Source: Limonium bicolor (lineage: Eukaryota; Streptophyta; Magnoliopsida; Caryophyllales; Plumbaginaceae). Taken from it: DNA of 64,000 bases. Each line of letters begins with the position of its first letter. Within the stretch, counting starts at the first letter, position 1. The notes under the pieces are model-generated. The model worked only from the letters and a program-made list of their open reading frames with translations. It ran no database searches and was not told where the DNA came from. Location of the stretch: NCBI GenBank assembly GCA_023374045.1, contig CM041783.1:93035298-93099297 (forward strand). Direction: 5' to 3'. Below, piece by piece: positions 8,410-55,482 of this stretch. The translations under genes were made by a program, and so were the position numbers.

Positions 8410-8570
8410 CGAGCTAGAAGTGTTCCTTGTGTGGTAGGTTAATGATACTGTAATCTGGTAACTTAGATGAGGATTATCAATTGCTCAAACTCCTGCGTGA
8501 GTAATACTGATAATAGAAAAATTCTGCATGGGTCTATTAATGAACTAGTGCAGAAGTGAGTTTGAGGTCT

Positions 8571-11500: not shown

Positions 11501-11789
11501 GTAACTAAGTAAACGGGGAAAAGTTATAAGCACTAGACTTTAAACAATCATGATACCCCGATGTTAATAAAAATACATGTAATGTTATCATTTGTTCGAG
11601 GATTGCACGAGGAACATAAGTGGACACGATAAAGTGGACTCCGGTGATAGGTATGGTTTTCTTGCAACCTGTGTCCTACCGGATTACACCGGCTTGTATG
11701 CCTATGTGTTTTTCTGTGTGTTTGCCACGTTGTAAGATAAAACATGTAATGAGTTTACAGTAATTCATTTATGTGGCGTGTTCAACTCC
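8571..11789 (+). mobile_element. LTR A1, first 3.2 kb (5' LTR of the A tandem array)
   Basis: It starts TGAAATACCCC without a PPT in front, so it is the outer left LTR; the flanking bases are GGTCT. It is colinear with complete A LTRs at 39395-43975 and 47038-51654 until it stops at 11789, where element B begins after ACTCC. The missing 1.45 kb of this LTR lies inverted at 29827-31274. A GC-rich hairpin array occupies 11008-11338. No coding function. Confidence 0.9.
11008..11338 (+). repeat. Hairpin tandem array in LTR A1, about 5 units of 73 bp
   Basis: Each unit contains a GC-rich inverted repeat, typically GACCGACCTTG and CAAGGTCGGTC, separated by about 12-13 bases, followed by an AT-richer spacer ending in TCTGGAATG. 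The arms vary between units but mostly stay complementary (GACCGAAC pairs with GTTCGGTC). The unit includes ACCGAC, the core of the plant DRE/CRT element, on both strands. Confidence 0.85.
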
Positions 11790-12301
11790 TGTTATACCCA
11801 AAATTTTGACCCCCCTGGTTAGGGTCTGCAAGGTTTTGGTGTCGTGAGGGATATTTGATCGGGTAATGAGGGATTCCGGCTCGATCGGCGTGTTCCAGGT
11901 CCTGAGGAGCAGTTTCGTCATTGTCAGGGGCGTTTTCGTAATTTTTAAGGCTTTTGAGATCTCCTATAGGCTTTCTCTCTCCTCCAAAGGGTGCCCAAAT
12001 CAGCTCGAAACGCTTTGATATTTTAACCCATGATAGAGGATGACATTTTAAGCATAATGGCGTTGGAATTTTGATTTTTCGAATTTCCAATAATTTTCTA
12101 GCAATTTCTGACTGAATCTGACGAGAAATTCAATTTAAAAATGCTCCGCATTTAAAAAATTCGTTTCCACCTCAGAAAATTCATAATATCCATTCTTGAC
12201 ATGTGGTTAAAATTTCATAGCAAAATTCCTTTGGGAAGTTACTTAGTTAAAATATCGAAAAATCTTACTTTTACTAGATTTTCTTTATCTTTAAGAAAGT
12301 C

Positions 12302-12309
12302 TATATAAG
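12302..12309 (+). promoter_or_regulatory. TATA box of the B LTR promoter
   Basis: TATATAAG in a GTCTATATAAGG context, conserved in all four B LTRs (20461-20468, minus-strand 32543-32550, 62843-62850; the 3' LTR and solo LTR have an extra A). It is the best core-promoter match in the B LTR; the transcript start would lie about 30 bases downstream. Confidence 0.6.
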
Positions 12310-12885
12310 GGATAGGTTTTTGGATAAAATCAGAACCTCACATACTCAAGAACCCTAGAGAGTCAGAAAAGGCAGCCTCCTCTCTCTCTCTCACGTTTTC
12401 CAACACCCGGCCACCCAAATCATACCGAAAATCCCCAAATCATCATCTAAACACGTTTTCCAATTCCCAAAGCACCAATAATCATCAAAACCCCACAAAA
12501 ACACCACCAAAACGTGAAGAACAGCAAGAACAACCAACAACCAGAAGCTTGGTTCGAAGTCCTTCGGGTCTATCATCAACGGAGCACTCGACGAATCCCG
12601 GTGTGAAGAAACGTTGTGAATCCGAAGGTAAAACAGGTAGAAACTCAGCTTCCCTAATTCTCCACGGTATTATCTGTCTTGCCTCGAAATTTGGGCTCAA
12701 ACTAACCTTCGTAGCTTCTGTATTGCTGTTTATTCAAGCTTCTGTCCAATAACTTGTTTACTAAGTTTCGTGCTTAATTCGAATTCAAATTGAAAACTTT
12801 CAATCACTAACGTCTTGTACATCTTTCAGGCTACGCACCCATAAAATTTGAGCCAAAACACCCTTCGGGAACCCTCAAACCCGCC

Positions 12886-13131
12886 GTCCGAGGGTGTCCG
12901 CACCCGGACGTCATGTCCGGGGTCCCGGACTCTGTCCGAAGCCCGGACACCCACGGACGGCGGCGGGATTTTAAATTTTAAAATTTAGGTTTTCTGATAA
13001 TGTCCGGGCCCACGGACAGCCTGTCCGTGGCCCCGGACTTTACAATTTTTGTTTTCTTTTAATTCGACTTTATTTTCATATAGGTTAACTGGGGTCCGTG
13101 GTTCGGACATTAGGTCCGTGGCTACGGACGG
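12886..13131 (+). repeat. GC-rich GTCCG/CGGAC palindrome cluster in the B 5' LTR
   Basis: Many GTCCG and CGGAC motifs occur in both orientations. The clearest structure pairs GTCCGGGCCCACGGACAG (13002-13019) with the next 18 bases (13021-13038), 17 of 18 complementary. The same 37-bp palindrome is kept in the other three B LTRs. Function unknown. Confidence 0.7.
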
Positions 13132-13560
13132 AAACAAAATTTGACCTAATTCTGCCTCCGAAACCCTAGTTTAGGTAATTTTAATTTCACTTTAATTTTC
13201 TGTCAAAAAATGCTAAAAACACAAAAAAAACAGAAGCTCGCGCACTTAGGTTAAAACGACTCGTAATAAGCCGTAATAAACCAAGTAGAGGAAAAACGAC
13301 CTAGGAAGGGTAATGAAAGTAATTGAACCCTAATTAAGTCGAATATCAAGCCCCCGAACCCGAACTCTCCTTTCCTAATTTGATCTAGGTTAAAATTAGG
13401 TGGCGACTCGTAATAGGTTCCAGTGAGCTAGCTTAGGTTTTAATAATTATTGTTATATGACATAGTTATTAATCTTAGGCTATAAGTGGACCTAAAACCC
13501 GTTTAGATCCCAATCAAGTTAATCCACATAGGATAGGGTTTAAAATCGAGGCTCACAGAC

Positions 13561-13578
13561 TGGCGACTCTGCTGGGGA
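13561..13578 (+). promoter_or_regulatory. Primer-binding site of element B
   Basis: TGGCGACTCTGCTGGGGA begins three bases after the LTR end. It closely resembles the tRNA-complementary site of plant Tat/Ogre elements (usually assigned to tRNA-Arg) and differs from the TGGTATCAGAG site of A and C. It would anneal the tRNA that primes minus-strand DNA. Confidence 0.85.
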
Positions 13579-14779
13579 CAAACTTCTTAATTTTAACTTG
13601 CTTAATTTTAAGAAAGAGGGCTTAACTCGAAAAATGTTTATTTGGCTTTATTACATTGTTTGTTTACCTTTGTGCGCACTTTAATTCCTGCACCTTTGCA
13701 TCATATGAGTACGAGGGTCCACGCAAACCAGTTTTACCCCGGGACCCGTTTGAGGGTCCCCTGCCAGGGACTCACACCTTTTAGGTGATGTGAATAAGCG
13801 GGGGAAAAGAGGAGGGTGTCGTCTAACCACACCCCCTTAATACCTGGGCCTTAGCCCCAAGCGTTTTCCTGGCAGTGCCCTTACCTAGCCCTTTGTTTGG
13901 TCAGTCAAAGACCCGACCGTAGACGCATACCTTCAGGTGATGTGAAAAGAGTGGGGAAGCCCAAAGAGAATAGCGTGCAAGCCCTATTCCTTTGTGGTGA
14001 CCTGGGCCCACGCCCCAAGCACCTCTCCGGATCGATCCATACCCGGTTCAATTTAAACATCTAGTGAGGACATGTTGAATTTGTGTGGGCCTTGCTTGCT
14101 TGTGTGGTCGGCCCACTACCCAGCCTAGAGATTGATAGGAATTTCTCCTACATCAACCTAGCCCAACACGAATTGACAGCTCTATTTGTTTGCGGCCCGG
14201 AGGCCCTGTTTGGTTTAACATGTGAGTAGTTTGGGTCTCGGCCCAAAAGTTTAGATTTAGGTAATTTCTCTTCTGGCCCAATTTGAATTATCCAATTAGT
14301 TCTAGGCCCATAAAAAAGAAATTCACCTGAACTTGAAATAACTCACAAGTCCTTGAAATAAAATCTTTTTTAGAAACCACCTTCTCTGACCCAAAGAAAG
14401 TTAGACCCATTCGTGATTTAGGGACCATTCCAGCTCATGTGCTTTACTTCAGGCCCAAACACATTCCGGCCCAAGGGCTCATTCCAATCTAGGTAGACTT
14501 CTTGTCATGGCCCTATGCCAAAATCATAGATCCAGGTGTCACCTCTTAGGCACAATCAAAGCCATCCGTTTAGATTTCAGTCCAAATTCCAGTCTAAAAG
14601 TACTCCATCCCAAACACCTCATTTTCTGGGCATCCTGGCCCACTTCCTTTCAGTATAAGCCTGTTTTGGTTTTCGATCTACCTTGTGAAACGTCATTTTA
14701 GCCCTAGTATCATTCGGCCCACTTCCTTTTGCCAGCTAATAATGGACACCTTGGAAACAGGTAGGCCTATATCCCGAGA
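13579..14779 (+). other. Untranslated leader of element B
   Basis: About 1.2 kb between the primer-binding site and gag with no long open frame. It has two diverged copies of a block containing AGGTGATGTGAA and ending CCTGGGC...CCCCAAGC (about 13777-13870 and 13929-14028), and from about 14050 to 14730 a high density of GGCCCA motifs. Packaging and translation signals would be expected here, but none can be proved by reading. Confidence 0.5.
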
Positions 14780-15826
14780 ATGGCAGAAGGAGGAATTCCA
14801 ATCAGCACGGATGCTCGGTTAGCCATAGAATTCGATGAGATGCTGAAAAAGATTGAGCGCATGGAGAAGGCCAACAAGCCGGCCGGTTTTGATTACTTTT
14901 CCACTGGATTGTATCCCGAGATCGATCTCCCTCCAAAGTTGAAACTGCCAACACTTCCTCTGTACAAGGGTTCCTCCGACCCACAGCTTCATTTGGCAAT
15001 GTTCGATAGAGAAATGTCTATCCTTTTGCTGAACGATATGCAAAAGGCCAAGGTATTTGCTCGCTATCTTGATGAGACTCCTCAGCGTTGGTACATAACT
15101 CGAAGGATGAATACCAAGACATACGAGGAGGTCTGTGAAGCCTTTCTGCATCATTTTGAGTACGCTAGAAGTTTTGGAGTCACCAGGGCTGATCTTGCAA
15201 GCACACGACAAACAGAAGGTGAATCAATGACCGACTTCGTCAAGCGTTGGAGGATGAAGGCAGCCGCTATGCTCACAAATATGGACGAACAGGAGCAAAT
15301 CCGAATGGTAATCAAGAATATGCGAAAGCAATACAATGAGAAGCTGAAACTCACATACTTTCCTAGTTTTGACTTGCTGATGGGACAAGTTGGTGTCCTA
15401 GAGGAGTTGATCCATAAGGGAGAATTAAAGCTTGGGGACTCAGAAGACACCGGAAATGGTTCAAGGACAGCAGCTTGCGTCCAAAGAGGCATCCAAAAGA
15501 GAACCAGGCAGCATGAGGTAAACACCGTTCGACGGCTAAGAGAATCAGGCTGGGCTATTGGAGCATCAGAGCCACCTAGAAAGAAACTCCGTCAGAGAGA
15601 GTTCACAGACATCGGCCGACCGTTGAGCCAGGCTTTTAAAAGGCTCCAAGAGCGAAGCATACTACAACCTCTCACCCCCCGGCCTGGGGTCCCTCAGAAA
15701 GGAAGGAATCTAAGTCAGTTCTGCCGGTACCACCAATTACCTGGCCACGACACTGAAGATTGCAAGGCTTTGAGGCACACGATCCAGGACCTCTTTGACC
15801 AGGGGTTTCGATGCGACGATATCTAG
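14780..15826 (+). CDS. gag: Retrotransposon gag (nucleocapsid) polyprotein of element B
   Basis: A 348-residue protein that would form the cytoplasmic virus-like particle and bind the element RNA. The ATG sits in a good plant context (GAATGGC). Residues about 75-200 look like the plant Ty3/gypsy gag domain (Retrotrans_gag type), with the FARYLDETPQRWY segment and a following Q..GES..DFVKRW motif. A zinc knuckle lies at residues 315-328, CRYHQLPGHDTEDC, spaced C-X2-H-X4-H-X4-C, so the second cysteine is histidine, as often seen in Tat-lineage gags. A coiled-coil-like N terminus (EMLKKIERMEKANK) precedes. The frame stops soon after the knuckle (GFRCDDI, stop) and no protease or polymerase follows, so movement would need enzymes from another element. 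The frame is intact. Confidence 0.9.
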   Translation: MAEGGIPISTDARLAIEFDEMLKKIERMEKANKPAGFDYFSTGLYPEIDLPPKLKLPTLPLYKGSSDPQLHLAMFDREMSILLLNDMQKAKVFARYLDETPQRWYITRRMNTKTYEEVCEAFLHHFEYARSFGVTRADLASTRQTEGESMTDFVKRWRMKAAAMLTNMDEQEQIRMVIKNMRKQYNEKLKLTYFPSFDLLMGQVGVLEELIHKGELKLGDSEDTGNGSRTAACVQRGIQKRTRQHEVNTVRRLRESGWAIGASEPPRKKLRQREFTDIGRPLSQAFKRLQERSILQPLTPRPGVPQKGRNLSQFCRYHQLPGHDTEDCKALRHTIQDLFDQGFRCDDI

Positions 15827-16620
15827 GAGAATGCTTTTGTTAGAAATCACTTTAAATTCACAGTTCTTAGTTTAGACTTTAGAATATTTCGTTCCCATTC
15901 AGTTTTCCTTTTTAGAATACTTTGAGTAACTTTTCGATGTTTGTACTTAGTGTTATTCAATTTATTTGCCACTAATAAAGCTTTTGCATCCTTCACATCT
16001 TTAAGAAAATCATGTACAAATTTTTCGTAAATAAATGCTTTTTTTTTCTAACAAAAAAAAGGGTTTGAATGCGTGTTTTGATAAAGGCACGTGAAACAAT
16101 CATCTTCTTGCAATAGAACAAGACGATTCGTTTTTTTTCAAATGGGTGAACATGTCCGTCCAAACACCGTCACAGAACATCTAAAACAATCCACAAAGCG
16201 GTCCAAATTCTACATCTGTTTAAGTGTTGTCATAAACCCCAAATCAATACTAGGGGCAATTTGAGCTCAGGTCCGTCGTCTTTAATATTTCGTTTAAGCG
16301 TGTGAGCTAGTCTCTGAGTGAAACTCATGAGAGTGTCTCGAGCGGAAAAACCATGAGCGAACGGCGTGTCATTTTTACACGACTTCGGAAAGACCACATT
16401 CAAAGGTGAGGTAAACGGCATAACTCCGACCGAAGGAGACAATTTGTGAATTTACTCTTAGACCTGTGAAAAGTAACAAAGAGCGGATACACAACTATCA
16501 GGAATGACGAAGCGCCTAGGTACAGCACCACATAGCCAAAAGCTTGTGAACCCTGACATTAAACCCTAGGTACCCCCCTGAGCCTTTCGTATATCCCTTT
16601 TTGACATTATGAACTCCACA
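15827..16620 (+). other. Non-coding spacer after gag in element B
   Basis: AT-rich sequence with T and A runs and no supported ORF. It includes a PPT-like string ACTAGGGGCAAT near 16247-16258, one of several in this element. Nothing else recognisable is seen. Confidence 0.4.
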
Positions 16621-16634
16621 AAATAACCCGGCCA

Positions 16635-17229
16635 ATGATGAATGACCGACCCGGTGACCAAAGGAAGCGAGGAGCCCGACTCTCAGATAACATTCCCATC
16701 ATTCCAAAGAAGCAATGCCGCTATCAGCATGACAAAGTGATCCGCAAATGGTCCCAAAGTGACACAGGATCAACAGAGCTCACATCAAAACAGCTCTCGA
16801 AGCCCAAAACCGGGAAACACAAGAACCCCGAAGGCAAAGCCAAGAAAGATTAAAACAAAAGGCAAACCCGAAGTGCCTCGAAGAAATCCAAATGACAAAA
16901 AGAGAAAAGGTGTAAAGGACAACTTCAAAAGTCCAGGTCCAGAAGCTCGAAAGCAACGTCAACATGAAGCAGCTAGACGACTTCAAGACAAGGGAGATGA
17001 ATCCAAGAGAAGATGCAAGGTGCAGCTTTGGTCACCCCTTTTAAGCTCCACATACCTCAAATATCCCTCCATGGTCCCGTTGTCTTTCATCACACCCTAT
17101 GGCCACGTTATAAGCCTTAAAGACTTCCGACTTGATAGTTGTGTGTCCAATCACGTGAAAGTAACAGATCGAATGCGTAAATTCATCAAATATCAAATTC
17201 AATGGTCAAGAAGTTGTGACCGTAGGTGA
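16635..17229 (+). other. Two overlapping short ORFs, basic, unrecognised
   Basis: An open frame of 72 codons (16635-16853) overlaps one of 156 codons (16759-17229) in another frame. The first 100 residues of the longer one are rich in K, R, P and N (for example RRNPNDKKRKG). I recognise no domain. They could be a decayed remnant of a longer gag-pol reading frame or chance ORFs in A-rich sequence. No second copy in the window is available to test conservation. Confidence 0.2.
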
Positions 17230-17330
17230 GAAACGAGTGCAAGAATCAAACACTTTGAGTGTAAAGCACCACATCAAGACACAATCCTTGACCATGTGAG
17301 GATAAGACTTGTTCGCATGTTTAATCAAAG

Positions 17331-17434
17331 AAAATACTGGGGGCAATCGATCGTTCCGATCGATTGCCATGAACTCTAGCTCAGATTGCCTTAAGGAACA
17401 ATACTGGGGGCAATTGTTGGTTCCAACAATTGCC
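17331..17434 (+). repeat. Tandem pair of PPT-like sites with perfect 12-bp palindromes
   Basis: Two copies about 67 bp apart each begin ATACTGGGGGCAAT. The first folds as GGCAATCGATCG (17342-17353), loop TTC, CGATCGATTGCC (17357-17368). The second folds as GGCAATTGTTGG (17409-17420), loop TT, CCAACAATTGCC (17423-17434). The inner six bases differ between copies, yet both stems are perfect. An alternative is that copy 2 is a collapsed LTR, because it reads TGTTGG...CCAACA after the tract. Confidence 0.75.
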
Positions 17435-18048
17435 ATGACAACACCAACGGAAACCCAAAGCGTGGGCACCACAAACACCACCACGCAGGCCCACATAAGC
17501 CCTTACCACGTAGGCCCACATAAGCCCTTACCCTCACATCATACCACACATGCCCACATAAGCCTTAACCTCCACACAAACACTCTCAGGCCCGTCACTG
17601 GTCTTACCTCCACAAAACATCAGCTCATCTTAATCCAAATCACCATCCAAAATCACACCCCAACCCCAGGCTTGTCATAAATCCTGAACACCACAGCAAA
17701 AGCTTTCAGCACCACAATGAACACCACACATTTCCATTAGTATCGTGTTCATCCTCTGAGAAAAAAATTGCAGGTCTGGAACTCTTAGTCAGGAAATGAT
17801 TATTTCGCTTTCCTTTCTTAACAGTGTTTTTCTCAAGCATTGCCATGTTTGGCACATTTTCAGCTATTTCTTGCTTTGTGCAAATTTTCGGTTTTCGCAA
17901 GCACTTCAATTTCACTTTGCAATACTCGGGTAAACCTTGTCATCTCCATGTTTGGAACCTTAACAATTTGATCACAATGACAATCATTTGCATAAAACGT
18001 GTTTTGCATCCTCACATCATCAAGCATACTGCATTTGCCTGGTCAAGT

Positions 18049-18609
18049 TTAGATGGATCTCGGTCTCCATAAGCAACCGAGTAGATTGGGTCTCGGTCTC
18101 CATAAGCAACCGAGTAGATTGGGTCTCGGTCTCCATAAGCAACCGAGTAGAATGGATCTCAGTCTCCATAAGCAACTGAGTTAGATGGATCTCGGTCTCC
18201 ATAAGCAACCGAGTAGAATGGATCTCAGTCTCCATAAGCAACTGAGTTAGATGGATCTCGGTCTCCATAAGCAACCGAGTAGATTGGGTCTCGGTCTCCA
18301 TAAGCAACCGAGTAGATTGGGTCTCGGTCTCCATAAGCAACCGAGTAGAATGGATCTCAGTCTCCATAAGCAACTGAGTTAGATGGATCTCGGTCTCCAT
18401 AAGCAACCGAGTAGAATGGATCTCAGTCTCCATAAGCAACCGAGTTAGATGGATCTCGGTCTCCATAAGCAACCGAGTAGATTGGGTCTCAGTCTCCATA
18501 AGCAACTGAGTTAGATGGGTCTCGGTCTCCATAAGCAACCGAATAGAGTGGGTCTCGGTCTCCGTAAGCAACCGAGTAGGATGGATCTCAGTCTCCATAA
18601 GCAACTGAG
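18049..18609 (+). repeat. 33-bp hairpin tandem array, 17 copies
   Basis: Each unit holds an inverted repeat around CTCCATAAGCA: either CTCGGT...ACCGAG (11 units, one with a final mismatch) or CTCAGT...ACTGAG (5 units); one unit is mixed. The array lies in the 3' non-coding region of B. Its multiple-of-three length leaves a 201-codon frame open on the minus strand, which is a by-product of the repeat. Confidence 0.95.
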
Positions 18610-18633
18610 TTAAGATGAGTCTCATCCCTAAAC

Positions 18634-19060
18634 CTTAGGCACACATAAGACCTACCCTACATTCTATCCTTTTAGGCTCGTCATAAGACCTAGTTGCATT
18701 CCCTTAGGCTCGTCATAAGACCTAGAACTACCCTTTAGGCTCGTCATAAGACCTAGATCCAACCATTAGAGATAGGCTCGTCATAAGACCTAGAACCTCC
18801 CTTTAGGCTCGTCATAAGACCTAGTTGCATTCCCTTAGGCTCGTCATAAGACCTAGAACTACCCTTTAGGCTCGTCATAAGACCTAGATCCAACCTTTAG
18901 GCTCGTCATAAGACCTAGAACCATCCTTTAGGCTCGTCGTAAGACCTAGTTGCATTCCCTTAGGCTCGTAGTAAGACCTAGCATTACCTTTTAGCTTACC
19001 CACTCTCATCAAACACATGCATTCATCTCATTCATATGGGCTCGTCATAAGACCTAGCTG
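18634..19060 (+). repeat. About 31-bp tandem array with AGGCTCGTCATAAGACCTAG core
   Basis: Ten close copies plus an isolated eleventh at about 19039 share the 20-bp core. The linkers follow a repeating order (TTGCATTCC, AACTACCC, ATCCAACC), giving a higher-order period near 94 bp. Each core has a short TAGG/CCTA inverted repeat. Degenerate edge copies occur at both ends. Confidence 0.9.
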
Positions 19061-19285
19061 CATTACCCAGGCGCGCACAAGACCTGGCGACAGAAAGTTG
19101 GCGAGGTGATGGCAATAAATCCTCCTTTTGCGATGTCAACTTATTTTTGGGATCAACGAATGGTGGCAAGGCAATAAGTCCCCAGGGTTTTACCAGGGTT
19201 ATCCCTGCACACCGGCTTGGGGGGGATGGCAATAAGTCCACATTGGGTCCAGCCAGAGCATCGGCACGGTTTCGGTCCCCCAGAA

Positions 19286-19378
19286 GCATCCGAGCATCAT
19301 CAACATCATCGGCATTATCATCAGCATCAGCATCATTTGCATCATTAGCATTTCATGCATTCTTGCATTTGCATCCAG
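19286..19378 (+). repeat. CAT/GCATCA-type simple repeat
   Basis: Degenerate runs of ATCATC, GCATCA and GCATT motifs lie between the second and third arrays of B. No coding potential is inferred. Confidence 0.6.
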
Positions 19379-19390
19379 TTTTCACATCCT

Positions 19391-19835
19391 AGGCAGTCAA
19401 CGCTTTAGAATAGCTTGACATCATTTTCACCACTTTAGGTAGTCAGCGCCTCAGAATAGCTCGACAGCATATCGTCATTTCAGGTAGTCAACGCCTTAGA
19501 ATAGCTTGACATCATTTTCACCACTTTAGGTAGTCAGCGCCTTAGAATAGCTCGACAGCATATCATCATTTCAGGTAGTCAACACCTTAGAATAGCTTGA
19601 CATCATTTTCATCACTCTAGGTAGTCAGCACCTTAGAATAGCTCGACAGCATATCATCATTTTAGGTAGTCAACGCCTTAGAATAGCCTGACATCGTATC
19701 ATCCTTATAGGTAGTCGGCACCTTAGAATAGTCTGACATCACTTCATTATTATCTTTAGGCAGTCAGCGCCTTAGAATAGCTCGACAATGCTTTGTAGTT
19801 TAGGTAATTAGCGCCTCCGAGTAACTGGGCATCGT
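19391..19835 (+). repeat. 46-bp-type tandem array, about 10 copies in alternating dimers
   Basis: Units contain GTAGTCAACGCCTTAGAAT followed by AGCTTGAC, alternating with GTAGTCAGCGCC...AGCTCGAC, giving a period near 92 bp. The first type has a GTCAA/TTGAC inverted repeat; the second pairs less well. The last copies are diverged. Confidence 0.9.
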
Positions 19836-19935
19836 TAACCCGGTTTTCATACAACGTGGAGGATTCTGTGGAGTCCAAAATTTTGGGGCACCACTCAAGC
19901 ATCAACCAGACTTTTCACATTCGTTACAAAGTCCA

Positions 19936-19950
19936 GTTGACGGGGCAATC
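19936..19950 (+). promoter_or_regulatory. Polypurine-type tract before the B 3' LTR
   Basis: GTTGACGGGGCAATC ends directly at the 3' LTR start. The GGGGCAAT core recurs at about 16251, 17339 and 17407. It is short and interrupted by pyrimidines, so its quality as a primer tract is uncertain. Confidence 0.5.
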
Positions 19951-21743
19951 TGTTATACCCAAAATTTTGACCCCCCTGGTTAGGGTCTGCAAGGTTTTGG
20001 TGTCGTGAGGGATATTTGATCGGGTAATGAGGGATTCCGGCTCGATCGGCGTGTTCCAGGTCCTGAGGCAGTTTCGTCATTGTCAGGGGCGTTTTCGTAA
20101 TTTTTAAGGCTTTTGAGATCTCCTATAGGCTTTCTCTCTCCTCCAAAGGGTGCCCAAATCAGCTCGAAACGCTTTGATATTTTAACCCATGATAGAGGAT
20201 GACATTTTAAGCATAATGGCGTTGGAATTTTGATTTTTCAAATTTCCAATAATTTTCTAGCAATTTCTGACTGAATCTGACGAGAAATTCAATTTAAAAA
20301 TGCTCCGGCATTTAAAAAATTCGTTTCCACCTCAGAAAATTCATAATATCCATTCTTGACATGTGGTTAAAATTTCATAGCAAAATTCCTTTGGGAAGTT
20401 ACTTAGTAAAATATCGAAAAATCTTACTTTTACTAGATTTTCTTTATCTTTAAGAAAGTCTATATAAAGGGATAGGTTTTTGGATAAAATCAGAACCTCA
20501 CATACTCAAGAACCCTAGAGAGTCAGAAAAGGCAGCCTCCTCTCTCTCTCTCTCTCTCTCACGTTTTCCAACACCCGGCCACCCAAATCATACCGAAAAC
20601 CCCTGAAATCATCATCTAAACACGTTTTCCATTCCCAAAGCACCAATAATCATCAAAACCCCACAAAACACCACCAAAACGTGAAGAACAGTAAGAACAA
20701 CCAACAACCAGAAGCTTGGTTCGAAGTCCCTTCGGGTCTATCATCAACGGAGCACTCGACGAATCCCGTGTGAAGAAACGTTGTGAATCCGAAGGTAAAA
20801 CAGGTAGAAACTCAGCTTCCCTAATTCTCCACGGTGTTTATCTGTCTTGCCTCGAACTTTGGGCTCAAACTAACCTTTGTAAGCTTCTGTATGCTGTTTT
20901 ATCAAGCTTCTGTCCAATAACTTGTTTACTAAGTTTCGTGCTTAATTCGAATTCAAATCGAAAACTTTCAATCACTAACGTCTTGTACATCTTTCAGGCT
21001 ACGCACCCATAAAATTTGAGCCAAAAACACCTTCGGGAACAGCCTCAACGCCGCCGTCCGAGGGCTGTCCGCACCCACGGACGTCATGTCCGGGGTCCCG
21101 GACTCACTGTCCGTAAGCCCGGACGCCCACGAGACGGCGGCGGGATTTTTAAATTTTAAAAATTTAGGTTTTCTGATAATGTCCGGGCCCACGGACAGCC
21201 TGTCCGTGGCCCCGGACTTTACAATTTTCTGTTTTCTGTTTAATTCGACTTTATTTTCATATAGGTTAACTGGGGTCCGTGGTTTCGGACATTAGGTCCG
21301 TGGCTACGGACGGAAACAAAATTTGACCTAATTCTGCCTCCGAAACCCTAGTTTAGGTAATTTTAATTTCCACTTTAATTTTCTGTCAAAAAATGCTAAA
21401 AAACACAAAAAAACAGAAGCTCGCGCACTTAGGTTAAAAACGACTCGTAATAAGCCGTAATTAAACCAAGTAGAGGAAAAACGACCTAGGAAGGGTAATG
21501 AAAGTAATTGAACCCTAATTAAGTCGAATATCAAGCCCCCGAACCCGAACTCTCCTTTCCTAATTTGATCTAGGTTAAAATTAGGTGGCGACTCGTAATA
21601 GGTTCCAGTGAGCTAGCTTAGGTTTTAAAATATTATTGTTATATGACATAGTTATTAATCTTAGGCTATAAGTGGACCTAAAACCCGTTTAGATCCCAAT
21701 CAAGTTAATCCACATAGGATAGGGTTTAAAATCGAGGCTCACA
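19951..21743 (+). mobile_element. 3' LTR of element B
   Basis: 1793 bp, from TGTTATACCC to GCTCACA. It shares several variants with the inverted LTR at 31275-33063 that the 5' LTR lacks (TATATAAAGG, CTCCGGCATT, CCTTTGTAAGC, CGTAATTAAACC), so these two are closer to each other than either is to the 5' LTR. Confidence 0.92.
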
Positions 21744-24700
21744 GAACTCTTATGTGATCCTAGACTCAGTTAACTAAGGTTAACACTTCTGAGGTTAAAT
21801 GGTATCGGAGTTGAACACGCCACATAAATGAATTACTGTAAACTCATTACATGTTTTATCTTACAACGTGGCAAACACACAGAAAAACACATTGGCATAC
21901 AAGCCGGTGTAATCCGGTAGGACACAGGTTGCAAGAAAACCATACCTATCACCGGAGTCCACTTTATCGTGTCCACTTATGTTCCTCGAGCAATCCTCGA
22001 ACAACTGATAACATTACATGTATTTTTATTAACATCGGGGTATCATGATTGTTTAAAGTCTAGTGCTTATAACTTTTCCCCGTTAACTTAGTTACATAAC
22101 TTCACTTTTTAACTTGTTTTACTTTTACATTTGAATACATCTTTTCCCCCACGAAATTATCATTATAACTCACCTAACATGTCTTAAACAACCTTATAAC
22201 ATCATTACTAATCAATCCCCATCATTACATCATTTTATAACCTTAACAATGTTTTTGGTCCGACCGACCTTACCGACCGACCTTGCACAAGGTCGGTCCA
22301 TTCCAGAACACTTTACCGTCAAAATTTCTACTCCGACCTACCTTGTAAGTTCAGTCGCATGTTCGGTCCATTCCCGAGAGTTTCTTCCCTTTGAAAATCC
22401 AGGCCCGACCGAACTTGCCAAGTCCGGTCCCATGTTCGGTCGATTCCAGAAACTTAATTCGTACACAAAATACAAGCCCGACCGACCTTGCAAGTCCGGT
22501 CCCCAAGGTCGGTCCATTCCAGAAACCAATTCTCGCAGGGTAAACTAGGCTCGACCGACCTTGGCAAGTTCGATCTCAAGGTCGGTCTGCTCCAGACCCT
22601 TATTTTCCATTGCCCATTTAACTCCAAACTTCACCTCATATATCCTAATATGTCCAAACCTCATTTGGGCACTTCAAACACATCTTTAACCATGTACTAA
22701 ATTCCTTAAATCACCCACCAAAACTATCTTTATCATTCCACAAACTCCTTACAAAATCTCTTAATACTTGTACATTTTTTTCATTTGGTTTTCTAAGTGG
22801 TATTTCACCTATAATGACCACTATACCAAGATGTTTCCTCTACACCTTAGCATCATTTCCCAACATCTTTTCTTACTACTAAATCTCCTTTTCCACATCT
22901 TACCTAAACATCATGTATTCCTTGAATATCAACATTACCTAAACCTTAAACAAACTTCTCCAAGACTTTAATACATTCCTCAAAACACTCATTGAATTCC
23001 TAGAACTTCCAAGATAATACCTAAATCCTTGTAGCACTTTAAAACACCTTAATACATGCTTTCTTCCCTAGTAAAACACTTGTTCACCTTTAACACTTCC
23101 TAGTTCACCAAAACTTGTTTAAATCACTTAGAACTTCTTACACATTTTCCAAATTTTGCCATAGCTTCTCTTGTATATACTCACATCCAAACACTTAGGT
23201 TTTTACCTTATTTTATTCAAGAACACCTAAAATCCATCAAGAACTTTCTCACACACATAACTTCACCAAATTTACACTACATCACAATATAGTGCATAAA
23301 CTTAATTGCTTGGCACTTAGGCCCTTAAATAACATGGCTCTTAGGCCCTTAAATAACATAAACCTTAAACACTGAATTTCCGACATAAATAATGCCTTTG
23401 ACCTGCAAATACACCCAATAATACATATGCCCTTAATAAACTCCTTGAGAGCATTTTACTAGCTCATTTGCCATTGGCTCCTTAGGTATTTTATTAAGCA
23501 AATCAAGCTCATTTTCCTAGGCATTTAAACCATATTAGGTTAACACATTTACCTCTTTTCTTTCAAGACTTCCCACTTGTTTTTCTTTGTTCTTCCTTGA
23601 TAGAAAATCGGCAAGGGCTTTTATCACTTGTCAATCTTCTAATCAATACACATATAAGGGTAATGAGCATTAAGTTTAATACTCCAACTCATAGTTAAAC
23701 CCTAGGTTTACATATGTGTCTTAAAACACCAAAATTTGATGATTACCTTTGGAATTCGGAAGAGAGCTTGGTTAAGTAGCAAGATAGGACTCCTCCTAGT
23801 CCTTTGAAGTTTGAATAAAGCTATGAAGAGAGCAAGAAAAAGCACCATTGTGAGGTGAATTTTCGGACACATACAAAAATGAAGGAAACATCATTTTTTC
23901 TTTGAGTTTCCTTACCTAGAAGCAAAGGAGAACAATAATATGTGAAAAGGTGAGCTCAAGCTCCATCAATGGTGAATCTCCTTGGCACTGAAATGAGGCT
24001 TTTGAAGATTTGAAAAGATAGAAGTGTAGAGCTTGCTCCAACTAGAAGGATGGTGGTCTTGAAATTGAATTTGGACCATGGAGCTAGGAGTTACAAGAGA
24101 TCAAAGATGGAGTTTGGTGTGGTACTATTGAAAACCGTAGAAGAGAGCATGAAGGGAGGAAGAACCGTGTGAAATGAGAAGGAAGAAGAGAATGAGAAGG
24201 TAAGTTTGCTTTTGGAAGATATTTATGTTATAAAGTGACTTTCTTCTTTTACTTACTTTTCCTTCCTTTCTTAAATTGATTTCTTTTACATGTTGGTGAC
24301 TCACCATGATAGAAACCGGCCCCCTTCTAATAAGATGGGTGTTTTGGTCTTTGTTGACCAATTAACTTACTTATAATAACATATGTTACAAACTAGCTTA
24401 TAAAAGTTACTATTCATAAAAACAAGGCACATAGAAGTGAAATTTTTGATTTCCCATTGATATAGACTTCTAAATGTGATACTATATAGTACACATGTTA
24501 ATTAAAGAGTAATGATGGCCATTTAGCCATTCAAAACTCATTTACAAGACAATTTTTCAAAAATGTGCTTTAAGACTCCTTAAAGCACATTTTGTGTTTT
24601 AACTTGTTTTCAAGCTTGGTTTTCTTTAGTAATTGATTTAATATGTTAATTAACATATTTATAAGGTATATGTATGACCATTAGGTTTTATACAAATTTA

Positions 24701-25025
24701 TCCCAAGCTTAGAGCACATTTTTGCTCATACTGTCTTTAAGGTATTTATTTGTGTTTTGTTTTGTTTCATTGTCTAACAAAGTTTCCTAAGGACTTAATT
24801 AGCCTTATTAAATCATAATTGAATATTATTAAGTCTTGGTAGGCTCTTTGGGTCCTAACCAAGTTCACTCATAGCTTGAAGCATGTTTTTGCTCAAATTG
24901 TATCCTAGTGCTTTATTGCATTTTACTATGGTTTAAATTGTTCACTAATGTTTCTAAGGCACTTTTTAGCCTTTGCATACCATAGTTTAAATGTTTAACA
25001 ACATATCAAGGTTTGGGGTATTTCA
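21744..25025 (-). mobile_element. LTR A2, first 3.3 kb, inverted
   Basis: Reverse complement of the start-side 3282 bp of LTR A. It ends at 25025 with the complement of TGAAATACCCC next to a PPT complement. Its other end, GAACT, is the complement of AGTTC, which is found to the right of the solo B LTR at 33064. The rest of this LTR continues (+) from 33064. Hairpin array at 22259-22588. Confidence 0.9.
22259..22588 (-). repeat. Hairpin tandem array in LTR A2 (inverted copy)
   Basis: Same five-unit array as in the other A LTRs, read on the minus strand. It contains unit-specific substitutions, including TACCTTG and CAGTCG variants that weaken some arms. Confidence 0.8.
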
Positions 25026-25062
25026 ATCTACCCCTCTTAAAAGAACTTCATCCTCGAAGTTC
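25026..25062 (-). promoter_or_regulatory. PPT with upstream hairpin (A internal 1)
   Basis: On the minus strand the hairpin GAACTTC/GAAGTTC (25043-25049 and 25056-25062, 6-nt loop) precedes TTTTAAGAGGGGTAGAT, directly next to the LTR start. The G run is interrupted by one A here, unlike internals 2 and 3. Confidence 0.75.
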
Positions 25063-25721
25063 ACACTTCCCACACACCATTAGATTAGAACACAGGAATC
25101 ACTTGGAAATAAACTTCCATAACCCAAACATATTTTACATTACACCCTCGGACTTAATGGTCCGGGTAACACATTCACATCCATACATAACATAACATAT
25201 TCACATGATAACCTCGGACTCAATGGTCCGGGTATCTTAACAACATTTACACATACATAACAACCCTTAGACTCTCTGGTCTTGGGTAACATAACAACAT
25301 TTAGACACATAGGTCTTGATAACATAACAGCCTTTAGACACGTAGGTCTATATAACACAACAACATTTAGACTCATAAGTCTTGATAACATACGCCTTTG
25401 GAACTCAAGGTCAAAATAATATTTATTACACATACCACACAACATGTCATAGCATGTATAGCAATCAAAAATATCTTTGATATACACTGTGATCCCGGCA
25501 GAACCCGGTCGCGATGGACACCTTCCGTCCCCGTGCCCTTGGGAGATCAAAACAATCACTTAAATTTGATTTTTTTTCCTTGTAAGGTTAAGTAAGAAAA
25601 CTTTAATTATGTAAAGTATTTATCGACGCTTTATAATACCAATCCAGATCCTTTTTGAAAACACATATAACTCCAAGTCCAACTTATGCTCTTTGCTTCT
25701 TTTCTTAGCGCGGTTATTTGT

Positions 25722-25870
25722 GACCACTTATAGGGAGCTTCAAGAATCATCCAACCCTGATGTGATCAGCATCAGTGTTGAACTATCCTTCCACCCCAAT
25801 TTGTGTTCGGCTTCCCTTGATCACATGCAAATCAAGTTCCACTTCCCACTTCATTTTCAAGCATCAAGTA
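25722..25870 (-). other. Conserved non-coding hairpin block (A internal 1)
   Basis: Minus-strand copy of the block also found at 38568-38705, 46212-46352, 62063-62205 and 654-790, including CTTGAT/ATCAAG with a 9-nt loop. Confidence 0.6.
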
Positions 25871-26352
25871 ATACACTCATTTCCAATTTTCTATCTTTTA
25901 GTCTTTCTAGTCATAATCATAACATCTCCAAGGGATAGAACTTCATCTATCAGTTATTTCCATTCACTTTAATCATGTTACCTAGGGAATCTTATTCTCA
26001 CTAGGTCCTATGTCGGTTTCATACCCTTTCATGAATCACTATATAACATATATATACACATATATTTTATCAAAATACAACACACAGTTTCACATTTATA
26101 CACTGTCGGGGTTTTTGCTCCCCGGGAGTTTCTCTACTCCCCACACTTGTACTATCACACACCATTGTTAACAAACAAACACACTTATCACAATGGTATT
26201 CGCATCTTCTGTGCGCAATTACCACAATTAAACCATGAATGAATGCGTATGTTTACGTAGCATACACAACCAATCATCAAAACATTATTTGTGCTATGCA
26301 CAACATAAATCACGTACACTTGTACGGTAATACACACTAAGTGGTTTTGCGC

Positions 26353-26389
26353 TCCTCACCCCCCTTAAAAGGATTACGCCCACGTAATC
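26353..26389 (-). promoter_or_regulatory. Upstream PPT-like site with hairpin (A internal 1)
   Basis: On the minus strand GATTACG-TGGG-CGTAATC (perfect 7-bp stem) is followed by CTTTTAAGGGGGG and TGAGGAGCG. It lies about 1.3 kb upstream of the terminal PPT. Confidence 0.5.
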
Positions 26390-29300
26390 AATCACTAAAC
26401 ATTGGCTTAAAATGTTCTGATTAGAGGATCTTAACCCTATTGGCGGTTTAGTTCCTAACCAAGAATTCTCATTGGAGTTTGTTTAAACTCTTAGTTGGTT
26501 TCGATTCTGGCCTGTTAGGCTTCTAGGCGTTAATAATTAGCCATTTACTCATATTCACTATGCACATTGTACACTTGACTCACTGGTTCACTAGCGTCTG
26601 CTGCGCAACTCTGACAACTGTAGGGCTTAGTTTGCCCCATTCATTATTCTCATTGTATTGTACACCTCCCATATATCACCTTTATCTTGGTAATAATGGT
26701 TTCTCAACCGACGCGTGGTATCTCTTACCGTGAGCGAATTCGGTGAGTTATAAACTTTCTATCCACTTCCATAATAATTGACTGTATATACTGTTACATA
26801 TTTCACAATGATTGACTTGTTTCCTTCCGACTTACTGTCGGTTGAGATTGAGCTACTACCTAGTGTGTAGTGCTCTCTCAGCTATTTACAACATTTGGGG
26901 TATATTCCATACCGATATTGGTAGTTAGTGCTACTGTTCACTTATTATTAATCATGTCTCCACATTTGGTTTTGTACAAGTACTCTTTTATTGGTGCGGC
27001 CTTGCATTTCCTATGCATCGGCCATTATAACATTATTCCTCCACAATTAGCATGTTTCCAATTCCTGGCTATCCCACTTGATCATTACTGCGCAAGTGCA
27101 ATGCCAAAACACTCAGTCATACAGAGTGCAGAGGCGTAAACTCTTGACAGCAAATCTCTCATGTGATTCGCACGGAATTCACATTGTGTTTCACTGAGAT
27201 TCTGATCTCGTAATACTGGCTACTGGCTTACCGCCTAGTTTGTTTGGTATCACTTATCGGTTAACAATACTTATACAACGGTCGCTTGCCGCGTACCGTG
27301 CTCTTACTTCTTGTATGACACTAACTTACATGGTATTTGCTGTCACATTAACTTCCACACATATACTTACATTATTCACATTATGGTTCGTCATCATTTG
27401 GATGACTACCCAGTGCTCGTTGAGCGTTGTCCATCACACATTTAGCGTCCCACACGTACGGTGGTTGCTATTAGACTTATTACCCTTCCGGTCTTCCCAA
27501 GTGGTAGTAACCATATTGGTCCACCCTTAACGTATTTCTTGAGCTTGGTTCACATAACTACCGCTTTCACAGTATCGAGAGGTATCCCCACTCTTAATGT
27601 AGTGGTTCGTTTATCACTTTATTCACTTATACAAGATAAACTTCTGCAATCCATCTAATTTACATAACACATTTTATTTGTGGCATATAAGCCTTACTGC
27701 CTTGAGCTGCGCTCATTGTAGGCTGTCCACATACATGTACTTCTTTGTACAACATTACATGGTTTGGACATTATATTGAGCTCCATGACAAGGTCGTTAC
27801 TTCCGTTTCCTTCCATGGGATGCCCCTTAGGTTTGTCAGTCCGTCTCCTGACAACTTATGTCTAAACTGGGTGTTAGTTTCAACCCTTGTGTTTCTGTCA
27901 TGTTATTTCGTGCAACAATTGTAGATGTGAATACCCTTTAAGGATTGCTCCTGGGTGTTGCTAAGTCATGCCATTATATCTGGTTCACACTTATTGGTAT
28001 ATTCCGTTAGCCACGCCGTTTGCGTTCTTAACTGGCATATTATCCTCTTCTGTGAAGATCAACATTTCCTGGTAGTGTAGGTACTCATTCTAGGAGTTTC
28101 ATCCCGTTCATTGCACATTAATGTGTCCACATTAGGCATCTGCCTTGCCATGCACAGGCTAGGTCACCATTCCAGCTATCATGTTTATCCCTGAGGATCC
28201 TTAAGACGTATACGATATTGTCTTTACATAACAGTTAGTGCACTTCGCACCTCCTGACTCTTAAACATTTCTTTGAAAGGAATTCACTAATTCCTTTGGT
28301 CTTCTTAACTCAACTGAGTTCCTTAATTTCAACCATTCCTTGTAATCCTTAGCTCTTGTTTATCTTATACTGCTGACCGTAGTACGGAGTCGACTACTTC
28401 TCGTGTTTCGGACTCTACTTGTAAACATATGTGGGGTACCATACTGATACATTACTACTTACCCAAATAACCCATAAGTAGGTCTGTCAGGCCCACAAGC
28501 TCCTATCGGAGTGCGGTCGTCCCACATTACAATTGGTACACTCGTAGTGTCCGTCACACGCCTAGGTGAAGTATTCTGTTGTCAACTCCCTTATATTGTC
28601 CCGTGACAATATGCGTCCCGTGCTTCCCGAACTTAATCGAAGGAAAGTTTATCCACTGTTGTATCCTTGTCAACTGTCCTTGGTTTTACTGGTTTGGTTC
28701 TTAAAAGAAGGTAGAAAGAAGTGTTGGTTTGAAAGAAAATTTTGGTTTTGAAAAGAAAAGAGTTTGAATAAATCTGGGTTTGAAAGAAAATTTTCATGGT
28801 TTCACAACATCTTCTTACCTTAACCAAGTCTAGCTTCTTGCTGACTGGTGTACTTACAATTACAGAGGTTAGGCTAACAGGCCCTTCCACTGTTATGACG
28901 ATCACATTTAACTTTATGGTACTTTACCAAGTACTTTGTAGTGGTTTAAATTTCCCGAACAGCCCTGTTATAGCAGCACTTGCTATGGCAAGTGCGCCAT
29001 GCTAACTGGCTATCGGTTCAACACATACCGGTTGTGGTATTGTTCTTACCCGCACTATCATCAGTGGCCTTGTTGGCCCTCACTGACCTTACTGTCTTGA
29101 TAATAACTCCTCTAGGTGACTTCTCATTGTCTTCACATGATGATCATCAACTAGGGTGTTTCCCATTCTGGGAGACCCCTTTTACTTAGTATTGTATCCT
29201 CTTTGTAGCCGTTCCACGTATTTGTTGTGGTAGCTGAGACTTGTCTCTTGTTTGGGCACTACGTTGTAGTTCCCTTGTCGGTTGGTATACCGTTGGTGTA

Positions 29301-29793
29301 TTATTTATCAACTGTGGTCCCGGAGACACTCGTCTCGGGTTTCACTAATCCACTTCTTGCCTGCTGCACGGTCGGTGCGTTGCAAGCTGGTTATCCTCGA
29401 CTGCTCGGCATGTCGACCCAAGTTGCCGGAAATTCTATTCTTCTGTACACAAGATTCTTCATTCTTCGCTATTAAATGCGGTTAACATTGTTCAAATGGA
29501 AACCGTCTCCGGGATTCCCACATTTCGGGATCCACCGTATGACAGGTTCTCTGTACTCACAGCGGTACTTAATAACAGCCAGATCGGGTATTCCCGAGTA
29601 AGAGAGGACTTCCATCTCTCTGGCGTTGTTTCCCAAGTTATAAAACAGGGATTGTGGAGGGCGGGGAGGATATTGTAGGTTTCCAGTACACACTGGTAAT
29701 ACCTAACTAGCGTATCTCTCACGCTATCACTCAACCCTTAACCCAAAGTACTAAAATCCTAACTCGGTACTTCCTAAGCTCGGTAATTCAGTC

Positions 29794-29821
29794 ATCAGAG
29801 CGATACTTCGCTCTGATACCA
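29794..29821 (-). promoter_or_regulatory. Primer-binding site and hairpin (A internal 1)
   Basis: On the minus strand TGGTATCAGAGCG (29809-29821) lies five bases from the LTR end. It matches the complement of plant initiator-Met tRNA, and its ATCAGAGCG is the left arm of a perfect 9-bp hairpin with a 6-nt loop. Confidence 0.8.
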
Positions 29822-29826
29822 CTTTT

Positions 29827-31274
29827 TGTAACACCCCATCCAACAACGAACACATAAAAACTTTCTGCAGCGGAAAACATACTACCTCACATTACTTAAC
29901 TCATTGGTGTTACACGCCGTTAACCACCCACGTGGCTAACAAGGCTATTACATAAACATCGGTCTGATGGACTAGATTCCCGAGCGACTACACATTATTA
30001 TCCTTTCCATTAACCACAAAACTTACATATACCTTCCAATTGTACCGAGTATTCACAACCTGATGCCGATAACAATTTCGGACTTACTACACCTACTGTA
30101 TATACACAACTTAAATGATTACCCATGTACAACGACTACCCCGTCCTACTCTTGAACGGCTTCCAGCTCTTGCACCTGAAATAGGAAAGAAGAGAAAGGG
30201 TGGCCCCCAAGGGGCTTAGCACCTTTGCTGGTATGGTAATCCCGCAGCCCACATGCTACCGGGCCACGCACAACTAATTGTCGTCTTAGCATGCGGTTGA
30301 TTATATTTAAATCATGCATGCAACTGTAAGCACACAACACATAACATTTCGCCTCAATGGGCTCAACAAACGGATAATACATCTTTACTTGATAAGTCAC
30401 TCATGGTATTCATTATCCCTAGAGTGCTCCTCCTCTAATGGAGCTACTTCCTTAATAGACGACACTTACCCATAAATCGGGTTATCCTTAAACGCCTCTT
30501 ATCACAAATTGGGATTCATTTCCATGATCCACACACTCCATATTTTACAACATATAGCATTCCTCACATAACAAAACATAACAACACTTTTCACGTTTCG
30601 ACGTGCACATGATAACATCGCAATAGAAATGGCATTACAACAACATCACATAACATAACGGGAACGGTCCTCTTAGGAACCGACCCAAACATTGTTAATT
30701 CACTGGTGAGCCTAGAGAATGATGTCACCCTCATGGTAAGCTCGTTATACAACAACACAACACTCATTACCGTCCTAATAGTCGGACGAGTAACTTAAGT
30801 TAAGATGGTTTGGGTTTGGAGGCCCAAACACACACACACAAAACACATGTTCCCCCTAAACCGATCATAAGTCAGAATAGCTAAGCTTTGGAATAAGCTA
30901 ATGGGAGATTATAACCCGTGAGGGAAACAACCATAACAGAGAGAAGGGTAAGGCTAAGAATGACACCCACTCCCAAACAACACGCGACCGGCCAAACCGG
31001 ATTCCTCACCACTGTTAGTACATACTTACTTTATATATTAGTTAGAACCCCACTATGGAGTCTATCACATCTACACACGATACAGTATTACAACTGGGTT
31101 AAACACACAAGGGAGATCCCTACATTCACATACTCATATCACACAATTAACACACACATAGCCGTGGTTAGAACGTCCCATAGTTCGGATCGTTGCTCCG
31201 AATACCGAACTCTCAAGTGATCCTAGACTCAGTTAACTAAGGTTAACACTTCTGAGGTTAAATGGTATCGGAGT
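29827..31274 (-). mobile_element. LTR A1, last 1.4 kb, inverted
   Basis: Reverse complement of the end-side part of LTR A, from the complement of GGGGTGTTACA at 29827 to GGAGT at 31274. GGAGT is the complement of the ACTCC flank at 11785-11789, so this piece was originally joined to the LTR half ending at 11789. Confidence 0.9.
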
Positions 31275-33063
31275 TGTGAGCCTCGATTTTAAACCCTATC
31301 CTATGTGGATTAACTTGATTGGGATCTAAACGGGTTTTAGGTCCACTTATAGCTTAAGATTAATAACTATGTCATATAACAATAATTATTAAAACCTAAG
31401 CTAGCTCACTGGAACCTATTACGAGTCGCCACCTAATTTTAACCTAGATCAAATTAGGAAAGGAGAGTTCGGGTTCGGGGGCTTGATATTCGACTTAATT
31501 AGGGTTCAATTACTTTCATTACCCTTCCTAGGTCGTTTTTCCTCTACTTGGTTTAATTACGGCTTATTACGAGTCGTTTTAACCTAAGTGCGCGAGCTTC
31601 TGTTTTTTTTTGTGTTTTTAGCATTTTTTGACAGAAAATTAAAGTGGAAATTAAAATTACCTAAACTAGGGTTTCGGAGGCAGAATTAGGTCAAATTCTG
31701 TTTCCGTCCGTAGCCACGGACCTAATGTCCGAAACCACGGACCCCAGTTAACCTATATGAAAATAAAGTCGAATTAAACAGAAAACAAAAATTGTAAAGT
31801 CCGGGGCCACGGACAGGCTGTCCGTGGGCCCGGACATTATCAGAAAACCTAAATTTTTAAAATTTAAAAATCCCGCCGCCGTCCGTGGGCGTCCGGGCTT
31901 ACGGACAGTGAGTCCGGGACCCCGGACATGACGTCCGTGGGTGCGGACAGCCCTCGGACGGCGGCGTTGAGGCTGTTCCCGAAGGTGTTTTTGGCTCAAA
32001 TTTTATGGGTGCGTAGCCTGAAAGATGTACAAGACGTTAGTGATTGAAAGTTTTCGATTTGAATTCGAATTAAGCACGAAACTTAGTAAACAAGTTATTG
32101 GACAGAAGCTTGAATAAACAGCAATACAGAAGCTTACAAAGGTTAGTTTGAGCCCAAAGTTCGAGGCAAGACAGATAACACCGTGGAGAATTAGGGAAGC
32201 TGAGTTTCTACCTGTTTTACCTTCGGATTCACAACGTTTCTTCACACCGGGATTCGTCGAGTGCTCCGTTGATGATAGACCCGAAGGGACTTCGAACCAA
32301 GCTTCTGGTTGTTGGTTGTTCTTGCTGTTCTTCACGTTTTGGTGGTGTTTTTGTGGGGTTTTGATGATTATTGGTGCTTTGGGAATTGGAAAACGTGTTT
32401 AGATGATGATTTCAGGGGATTTTCGGTATGATTTGGGTGGCCGGGTGTTGGAAAACGTGAGAGAGAGAGAGGAGGCTGCCTTTTCTGACTCTCTAGGGTT
32501 CTTGAGTATGTGAGGTTCTGATTTTATCCAAAAACCTATCCCTTTATATAGACTTTCTTAAAGATAAAGAAAATCTAGTAAAAGTAAGATTTTTCGATAT
32601 TTTAACTAAGTAACTTCCCAAAGGAATTTTGCTATGAAATTTTAACCACATGTCAAGAATGGATATTATGAATTTTCTGAGGTGGAAACGAATTTTTTAA
32701 ATGCCGGAGCATTTTTAAATTGAATTTCTCGTCAGATTCAGTCAGAAATTGCTAGAAAATTATTGGAAATTTGAAAAATCAAAATTCCAACGCCATTATG
32801 CTTAAAATGTCATCCTCTATCATGGGTTAAAATATCAAAGCGTTTCGAGCTGATTTGGGCACCCTTTGGAGGAGAGAGAAAGCCTATAGGAGATCTCAAA
32901 AGCCTTAAAAATTACGAAAACGCCCCTGACAATGACGAAACTGCTCCTCAGGACCTGGAACACGCCGATCGAGCCGGAATCCCTCATTACCCGATCAAAT
33001 ATCCCTCACGACACCAAAACCTTGCAGACCCTAACCAGGGGGGTCAAAATTTTGGGTATAACA
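31275..33063 (-). mobile_element. Solo LTR of family B
   Basis: 1789 bp, complement of GCTCACA at the left edge to complement of TGTTATACCC at the right. There is no internal sequence or primer-binding site beside it. The flanks GGAGT and AGTTC do not match each other, but each matches a flank of the complete B element. TATA box on the minus strand at 32543-32550. Confidence 0.92.
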
Positions 33064-34133
33064 AGTTCGGTATTCGGAGCAACGACCCGGACTATGGGAC
33101 GTTCTAACCACGGCTATGCGTGTGTTAATTGTGTGATATGAGTATGTGAATGTAGGGATCTCCCTTGTGCATTTAACCCAGTTGTAATACTGTATGGTGT
33201 GTAGATGTGATAGACTCCATAGTGGGGTTCTAACTAATATCTAAAGTAATGGATAGACTCCATAGCTAACTAATATCTAAAGTGGTGAGGAATCCGGTTT
33301 GGCCGGTCGCGCGTTGTTTGGGAGTGGGTATCCTTCTTAGCCTTACCCTTCTCTCTGTTATGGTTGTTTCCCTCACGGGTTATAATCTCCCATTAGCTTA
33401 TTCCAAAGCTTAGCTATTCTGACTTATGATCGGTTTAGGGGGAACATGTGTTTGTGTGGTGTGTTCGGGCCTCCAAACCCAAACCATCTTAACTTAGTTA
33501 CTCGTCCGACTATTAGGACGGTAATGAGTGTTGTGTGTTGTTGTATAACGAGCTACCATGAGGGTGACATCATTCTCTAGGCTCACCAGTGAATTAACAG
33601 TTGGGTCGGTTCCTAAGAGGACGTTCCCGTTATGTTATGTGATGTTGTTGTAATGCAATTTCTATTGCGATGTTATCATGTGCACGTCGAAACGTGAAAG
33701 TGTTTATGTTTTGTTATGTGAGGAATGCATATGTTGTAAATATGGAGTGTGTGGATCATGGAAATGATCCAGTTTGTGATAAGAGGCGTTTAAGGATAAC
33801 CCGATTTGGGTAGTGCCTATTAAGGAAGTAAGCTCCATTAGAGGAGACACTCTAGGGATAATGAATACCATGAGTGACTTATCAAGTAAGGATGTATTTC
33901 CGTTTGTTGAGCCCATTGAGGCGAAATGTTATGTGTTGTGTTTACAGTTGCATGCATGATTTAAATATAATCAACCGCATGCTAAGACGACAATTAGTTG
34001 GCGTGGCCCGGTAGCATGTGGGCTGCGGGATTACCATACTAGCAAAGGTGCTGAGCCCCTTGGGGGCCACCTTCTCTCTTTTTCCTATTTCAGGTGCAAG
34101 AGCTGGAAGCCGTTCGAGAGTAGGACGGGGTAG
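33064..34133 (+). mobile_element. LTR A2, distal part, 3' end deleted
   Basis: Continues LTR A from AGTTCGG in plus orientation. At 34133 it jumps directly into internal sequence. By comparison with 51341-51782, about 440 bp holding the last 310 bp of the LTR, the primer-binding site and its hairpin are missing. A small local duplication of CTAACTAATATCTAAAG is present near 33230-33280. Confidence 0.85.
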
Positions 34134-43975: not shown

Positions 43976-43979
43976 AAAG

Positions 43980-44007
43980 TGGTATCAGAGCGAAGTATCG
44001 CTCTGAT
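43980..44007 (+). promoter_or_regulatory. Primer-binding site and hairpin (A internal 3)
   Basis: TGGTATCAGAGCG (43980-43992), four bases after the LTR. ATCAGAGCG pairs perfectly with CGCTCTGAT (43999-44007) across a 6-nt loop. Confidence 0.82.
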
Positions 44008-45676: not shown

Positions 45677-45709
45677 GATTACGTGGGTAATCCTTTTAAG
45701 GGGGGTAGA
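45677..45709 (+). promoter_or_regulatory. Upstream PPT-like site with shortened hairpin (A internal 3)
   Basis: Here the hairpin has lost two bases but still pairs: GATTAC (45677-45682), loop GTGG, GTAATC (45687-45692). CTTTTAAGGGGGGTAGA follows. Confidence 0.5.
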
Positions 45710-55423: not shown

Positions 55424-55448
55424 CTGACAAAAAAAAAAATATTTTAAT

Positions 55449-55450
55449 AA

Positions 55451-55482
<32 letters not shown>

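Follow-up and report, generated by a model that had tools for sequence, protein, structure and literature searches.

A segment of a tandem array of element A in the genome of Limonium bicolor has probably been inverted by ectopic recombination between two copies of a second element, B, which lie in opposite orientation. The inversion is read from the sequence of a 64-kb window, the whole stretch of DNA that was analysed.

The two B copies are a full element at 11790-21743 (+) and a solo LTR at 31275-33063 (-, 1789 bp), with LTRs that are 98% alike. The full element consists of LTR1 (11790-13557, +, 1768 bp), an interior (13558-19950, +) and LTR2 (19951-21743, +, 1793 bp). A third B LTR, which starts at 62340, runs off the end of the window. 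B is identified as an LTR retrotransposon by its TG...CA LTRs, its 5-bp duplications (when unswapped) and a gag frame at 14765-15823. This frame matches PF03732 at 24.7 bits, just over the cut-off of 24.1. A Pfam scan of all eight plus-strand open frames of at least 75 codons in the interior (13558-19950) revealed nothing beyond gag; no frame of that length matched the reverse transcriptase or integrase that an autonomous element would carry. A tRNA search with ARAGORN under the bacterial code gave no hits. Of 2584 candidates in the gag search, one protein matched, with 44% identity across 20% of the query (E 2.3e-10), and this single match is too little to place B. Three longer tandem-repeat arrays, with periods of about 33/66, 31/63 and 45/91, occupy the interior at 18049-19787.

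The flanks of the B copies are one sign of the exchange. The full element has ACTCC on its left (11785-11789, +) and GAACT on its right (21744-21748, +; AGTTC on the other strand). The solo LTR is positioned between GGAGT (31270-31274, +; ACTCC on the other strand) and AGTTC (33064-33068, +). The first-pass annotation had reported these four 5-mers and their positions, and they are exact to the base on re-reading. It had also observed that the flanks of neither copy match as they stand, and that flipping the intervening segment back restores the duplications. Both observations hold: the present pairs agree in none of two cases, whereas the swapped pairs agree in both (ACTCC/ACTCC and AGTTC/AGTTC), and once unswapped the duplications of both insertions are 5 bp long. 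The 5-mers at 11785 and 31270 are the left and the displaced duplicate of insertion 1; those at 33064 and 21744 are the right and the displaced duplicate of insertion 2. From the 5-mer content of the window, both swapped matches are expected by chance with a probability of 1.8e-6, and one of 1,000,000 random quadruples had both. Chance agreement of the 5-mers is thus ruled out.

The host of both insertions is a young array with a period of 7.64 kb (from the start at 39395 to that at 47038) and LTRs of 4.58-4.66 kb. It contains four A LTR copies, of which a3 (39395-43975, 4,581 bp) and a4 (47038-51654, 4,617 bp) are intact, and a1 and a2 are each split by a B copy. The A LTRs start with TGAAATACCCC and end with GTTACA; within a few bases they are followed by TGGTATCAGAGC, which we take to be the usual initiator-Met tRNA primer site. 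A may be a LARD-like non-autonomous element, a kind in which very long LTRs enclose a short interior devoid of coding domains. The three interior open frames of A that were scanned gave no Pfam matches. The left part of a1 (8571-11789, +) and its right part (29827-31274), less the 5-bp duplication, add up to 4,662 bp. The total for a2, the right part of which occupies 33064-34134 (+), is about 4,348 bp. The expectation that both split LTRs would measure about 4.66 kb when rejoined is therefore correct for a1 but not for a2, which is short because the 3' end of the LTR and the boundary between LTR and interior have been deleted at 34129-34134. About 440 bp have been lost there from a2, namely the 3' end of the A LTR, the primer site and the start of the interior, and the next alignment resumes at 51778. 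The alignments flanking this deletion share a 6-bp overlap, as in microhomology-mediated loss. Further to the right, 52972-62263 is occupied by a diverged relative of A, similar at 60-74% in mostly colinear blocks. It opens with TGAAATACCCCG at the very point, within the interior, at which the young array breaks off. Similar LTR starts are found at 1602 and 6970.

The flanks and the core were mapped separately onto the intact A stretch (a3, interior and a4; 39395-51654, +), an alignment that the first-pass annotation had put forward. The pieces are colinear with this stretch, with the middle piece inverted. Positions 8570-11789 map to 47037-50259 in a4 (+, 98.1%), and 33064-34134 map to 50318-51341 (+; also to 42608-43671). 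Both ends of the core map in reverse, 31274-28507 to 50255-52971 and 21744-27344 to 50322-44679. The inverted segment (21744-31274, -) is thus made up of the left part of a2, an A interior and the right part of a1. The mapped pieces overlap by exactly 5 bp at each of two places in a4, 50255-50259 (ACTCC, the site of insertion 1) and 50318-50322 (AGTTC, the site of insertion 2). Apart from these overlaps, A sequence is neither lost nor doubled at the joints with respect to a4. The other intact copy, a3, differs by one base at the first site (ACTCT). The mapping is independent of the four flanking 5-mers and is the stronger test. An inverted duplication in place of an inversion was also considered and is ruled out, as the core supplies what a1 and a2 lack.

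All three B LTRs keep their full length at the joints, in keeping with homologous exchange and less so with end joining. It is extremely unlikely that the arrangement arose by breakage and end joining that fell at the B copies by accident, or that the flanks are similar by chance. Small deletions with short overlaps do exist nearby (34129-34134), but every joint retains intact LTR ends and 5-bp duplicates and is exact to the base, and chance similarity would have to produce both swapped matches.

The two insertions hit neighboring A units in opposite orientation, at positions that differ by only 63 bp within the unit. Such a spacing has a chance of about 1.6% in a 7.64-kb unit (2 x 63 / 7643) and perhaps reflects a target preference. 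The genealogy of the A copies is no help in deciding the history. In the left part of the A LTR, seven of eight two-to-two sites pair a1 with a2 (and a3 with a4), and the eighth pairs a1 with a3. The single two-to-two site of the right part joins a1 and a2, although by distance the right part of a1 is nearer to a3 and a4 than to a2.

The B LTRs are more informative. Their sites were polarized with the LTR at 62340, the sole outgroup, which ends at about alignment column 1689. Seven polarized substitutions unite LTR2 with the solo LTR (columns 294, 895, 916, 937, 1019, 1109 and 1185), and none unites LTR1 with either LTR2 or the solo LTR. Five of the seven fall outside a hypervariable block at columns 1060-1250. 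Polarized indel columns, too, unite LTR2 and the solo LTR (three, one of them in an ambiguously aligned run) and neither of the other pairs. In the AU test each of the two other trees has a p of 0.009, or 0.0003 when columns 1060-1250 are omitted; the KH and SH tests are milder (p 0.035, and 0.022 without the block). The result is independent of the root because no rooting of the quartet gives LTR1 and LTR2 as sisters. LTR1 and LTR2 look like parts of different insertions, in agreement with the duplications. LTR1, non-sister to the other two, abuts a duplicate of insertion 1 and belongs to that insertion at least in its 5' and middle parts. The outer end of LTR2 and the 5' end of the solo LTR abut the duplicates of insertion 2; LTR2 belongs to this insertion, as do the 5' and middle parts of the solo LTR, judging from the mapping and the LTR trees. 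Polarized sites are absent from columns 1-293, and also beyond column 1185 for substitutions and column 1524 for indels. No switch of affinity is seen within any LTR, and a change that would make the solo LTR chimeric is likewise not seen inside it. The hybrid nature is thus shown for the element as a whole and not for any single LTR.

The swapped duplications alone allow two geometries. If the exchange took place between LTR2 and the solo LTR, the B interior stayed where it was, whereas an exchange in LTR1 or the interior moved all or part of the interior with the flip. The two geometries predict different sister LTRs. The first-pass annotation had implied a crossover between LTR2 and the solo LTR, with an extent of 9.5 kb (21744-31274). 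This proposal fails in its simple form (AU p about 0.009) because it predicts that LTR1 pairs with either LTR2 or the solo LTR, and both trees are rejected. It could be rescued by gene conversion over a tract of at least about 0.9 kb. Such a history yields the same swapped duplications, makes LTR2 and the solo LTR alike and leaves the older states in LTR1, but it needs the extra conversion to run across columns 294-1185; otherwise both of its predicted trees are rejected. The conversion history is a variant of the inversion, and the rather low likelihood that we assign to it is counted within that of the inversion as a whole.

An exchange within the B interior or the 3' end of LTR1 is more likely. 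Its left point would, in the absence of conversion, fall between 12949 and 20240, the positions of the last LTR2-solo substitution in LTR1 and of the first one in LTR2, respectively. The flipped piece, if no conversion occurred, is then more likely about 11-19 kb long and includes LTR2. For an exchange in the 3' end of LTR1, the right point would be at 31275-31890.

We infer the succession of events, the place of the exchange and the correctness of the assembly. Two B retrotransposons would have inserted independently, in opposite orientation, into neighboring units of the tandem A array, each creating its own 5-bp target-site duplication (ACTCC in one case, AGTTC in the other). The opposed copies would then have undergone homologous (ectopic) recombination, which would have turned round all the DNA between the exchange points and moved one member of each duplicate pair to the other copy. 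The present full-length B would be a hybrid that carries LTR1 and the left duplicate of insertion 1 together with LTR2 and the right duplicate of insertion 2. The recombining partners may have been a solo copy on the left and a full copy on the right, with the exchange in the 3' end of LTR1. Alternatively, two full copies may have recombined in the B interior, one of them being later reduced to a solo LTR.

The first-pass annotation held that the exchanged duplications prove the inversion. The inversion between opposed B copies is strongly supported by the duplications, the colinearity and the non-sister LTRs, but 'prove' is too strong because an assembler that flips a segment at inverted repeats would produce the same picture. 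Had it crossed here from one inverted B repeat to the other, with the un-inverted order being the true one, the swapped duplications and the hybrid element would look just as they do. Indel-rich patches, with LTR1 and LTR2 among them, hint at an uneven consensus. We consider such an error improbable, though not negligibly so: the 64-kb window is free of N, and at 1.8 kb the solo LTR is short enough that long reads of ordinary length should span it.

Private indels number 16 in LTR1 (short deletions), 13 in LTR2 and one in the solo LTR. Among the A parts, the left part of a3 has 24 and the right part of a2 has 16, compared to three in the left part of a1, three in the left part of a2 and one in the left part of a4. 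Patches of private short indels, mostly deletions, cover 11790-13557, 19951-21743, 33500-34500 and 39500-43500, and adjoin clean stretches of the same repeats. They possibly reflect uneven consensus quality.

The inversion need not have been a single event. The opposed B copies might act as a standing switch that has flipped the array segment more than once, so that both orders exist in the species; repeated exchange or conversion would then account for the lasting likeness of LTR2 to the solo LTR and for the difference of LTR1. We regard this as very unlikely.

The B case belongs to a kind of rearrangement that is already known, and the surprise is moderate to low. Hughes and Coffin reportedly described, in 2005, rearrangements of human endogenous retroviruses through ectopic recombination between proviruses, and are said to have taken mismatched flanking duplicates as its sign. 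Their case concerns human proviruses.

A close parallel is inversion 2z3 of Drosophila buzzatii, which was made by the transposon Galileo (PMC2775673). As described there, the Galileo copies, like the B pair, are in opposite orientation with exchanged target-site duplications, and their terminal repeats are similar between copies and unlike within a copy. Galileo, however, is a DNA transposon with 7-bp duplications, whereas B is an LTR retrotransposon with 5-bp duplications; the piece flipped here would measure about 11-19 kb. A switch point is seen in both Galileo copies, unlike in the B pair, where none is seen. The Galileo inversion was compared with non-inverted chromosomes, for which the intact A copies are an internal substitute here.

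In plants, LTR exchange between separate insertions in the same orientation, with loss of sequence, is described for wheat (PMC7156093). The exchange is between insertions in both cases, but it led to sequence loss in wheat and probably to an inversion in B. Tandem arrays of retroelements are described for Cassandra (PMC7215508). Large inversions are described for maize, and LTR exchange was not found in the text examined (PMC2773423). No plant LTR inversion shown by exchanged duplicates was met in the literature covered, which mostly leaves subscription papers outside, and no claim of a first case is made.

The B pair is a compact case that can be read from one sequence, in which the flanking duplicates, the colinearity of the host array and the LTR genealogy agree on an inversion. 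It also contains a trap: the B element looks complete, with TG...CA at its ends, yet it is probably a hybrid derived from two insertions. The REANNOTATE paper states that LTRs of one element that do not cluster would reveal inter-element exchange, and that such exchange invalidates LTR dating (PMC2672092). The full B element carries this sign, as its two LTRs fail to cluster. Because the element is probably a hybrid, an age estimate from the divergence of its LTRs would be misleading, and any filter that requires the duplications to match would reject it.
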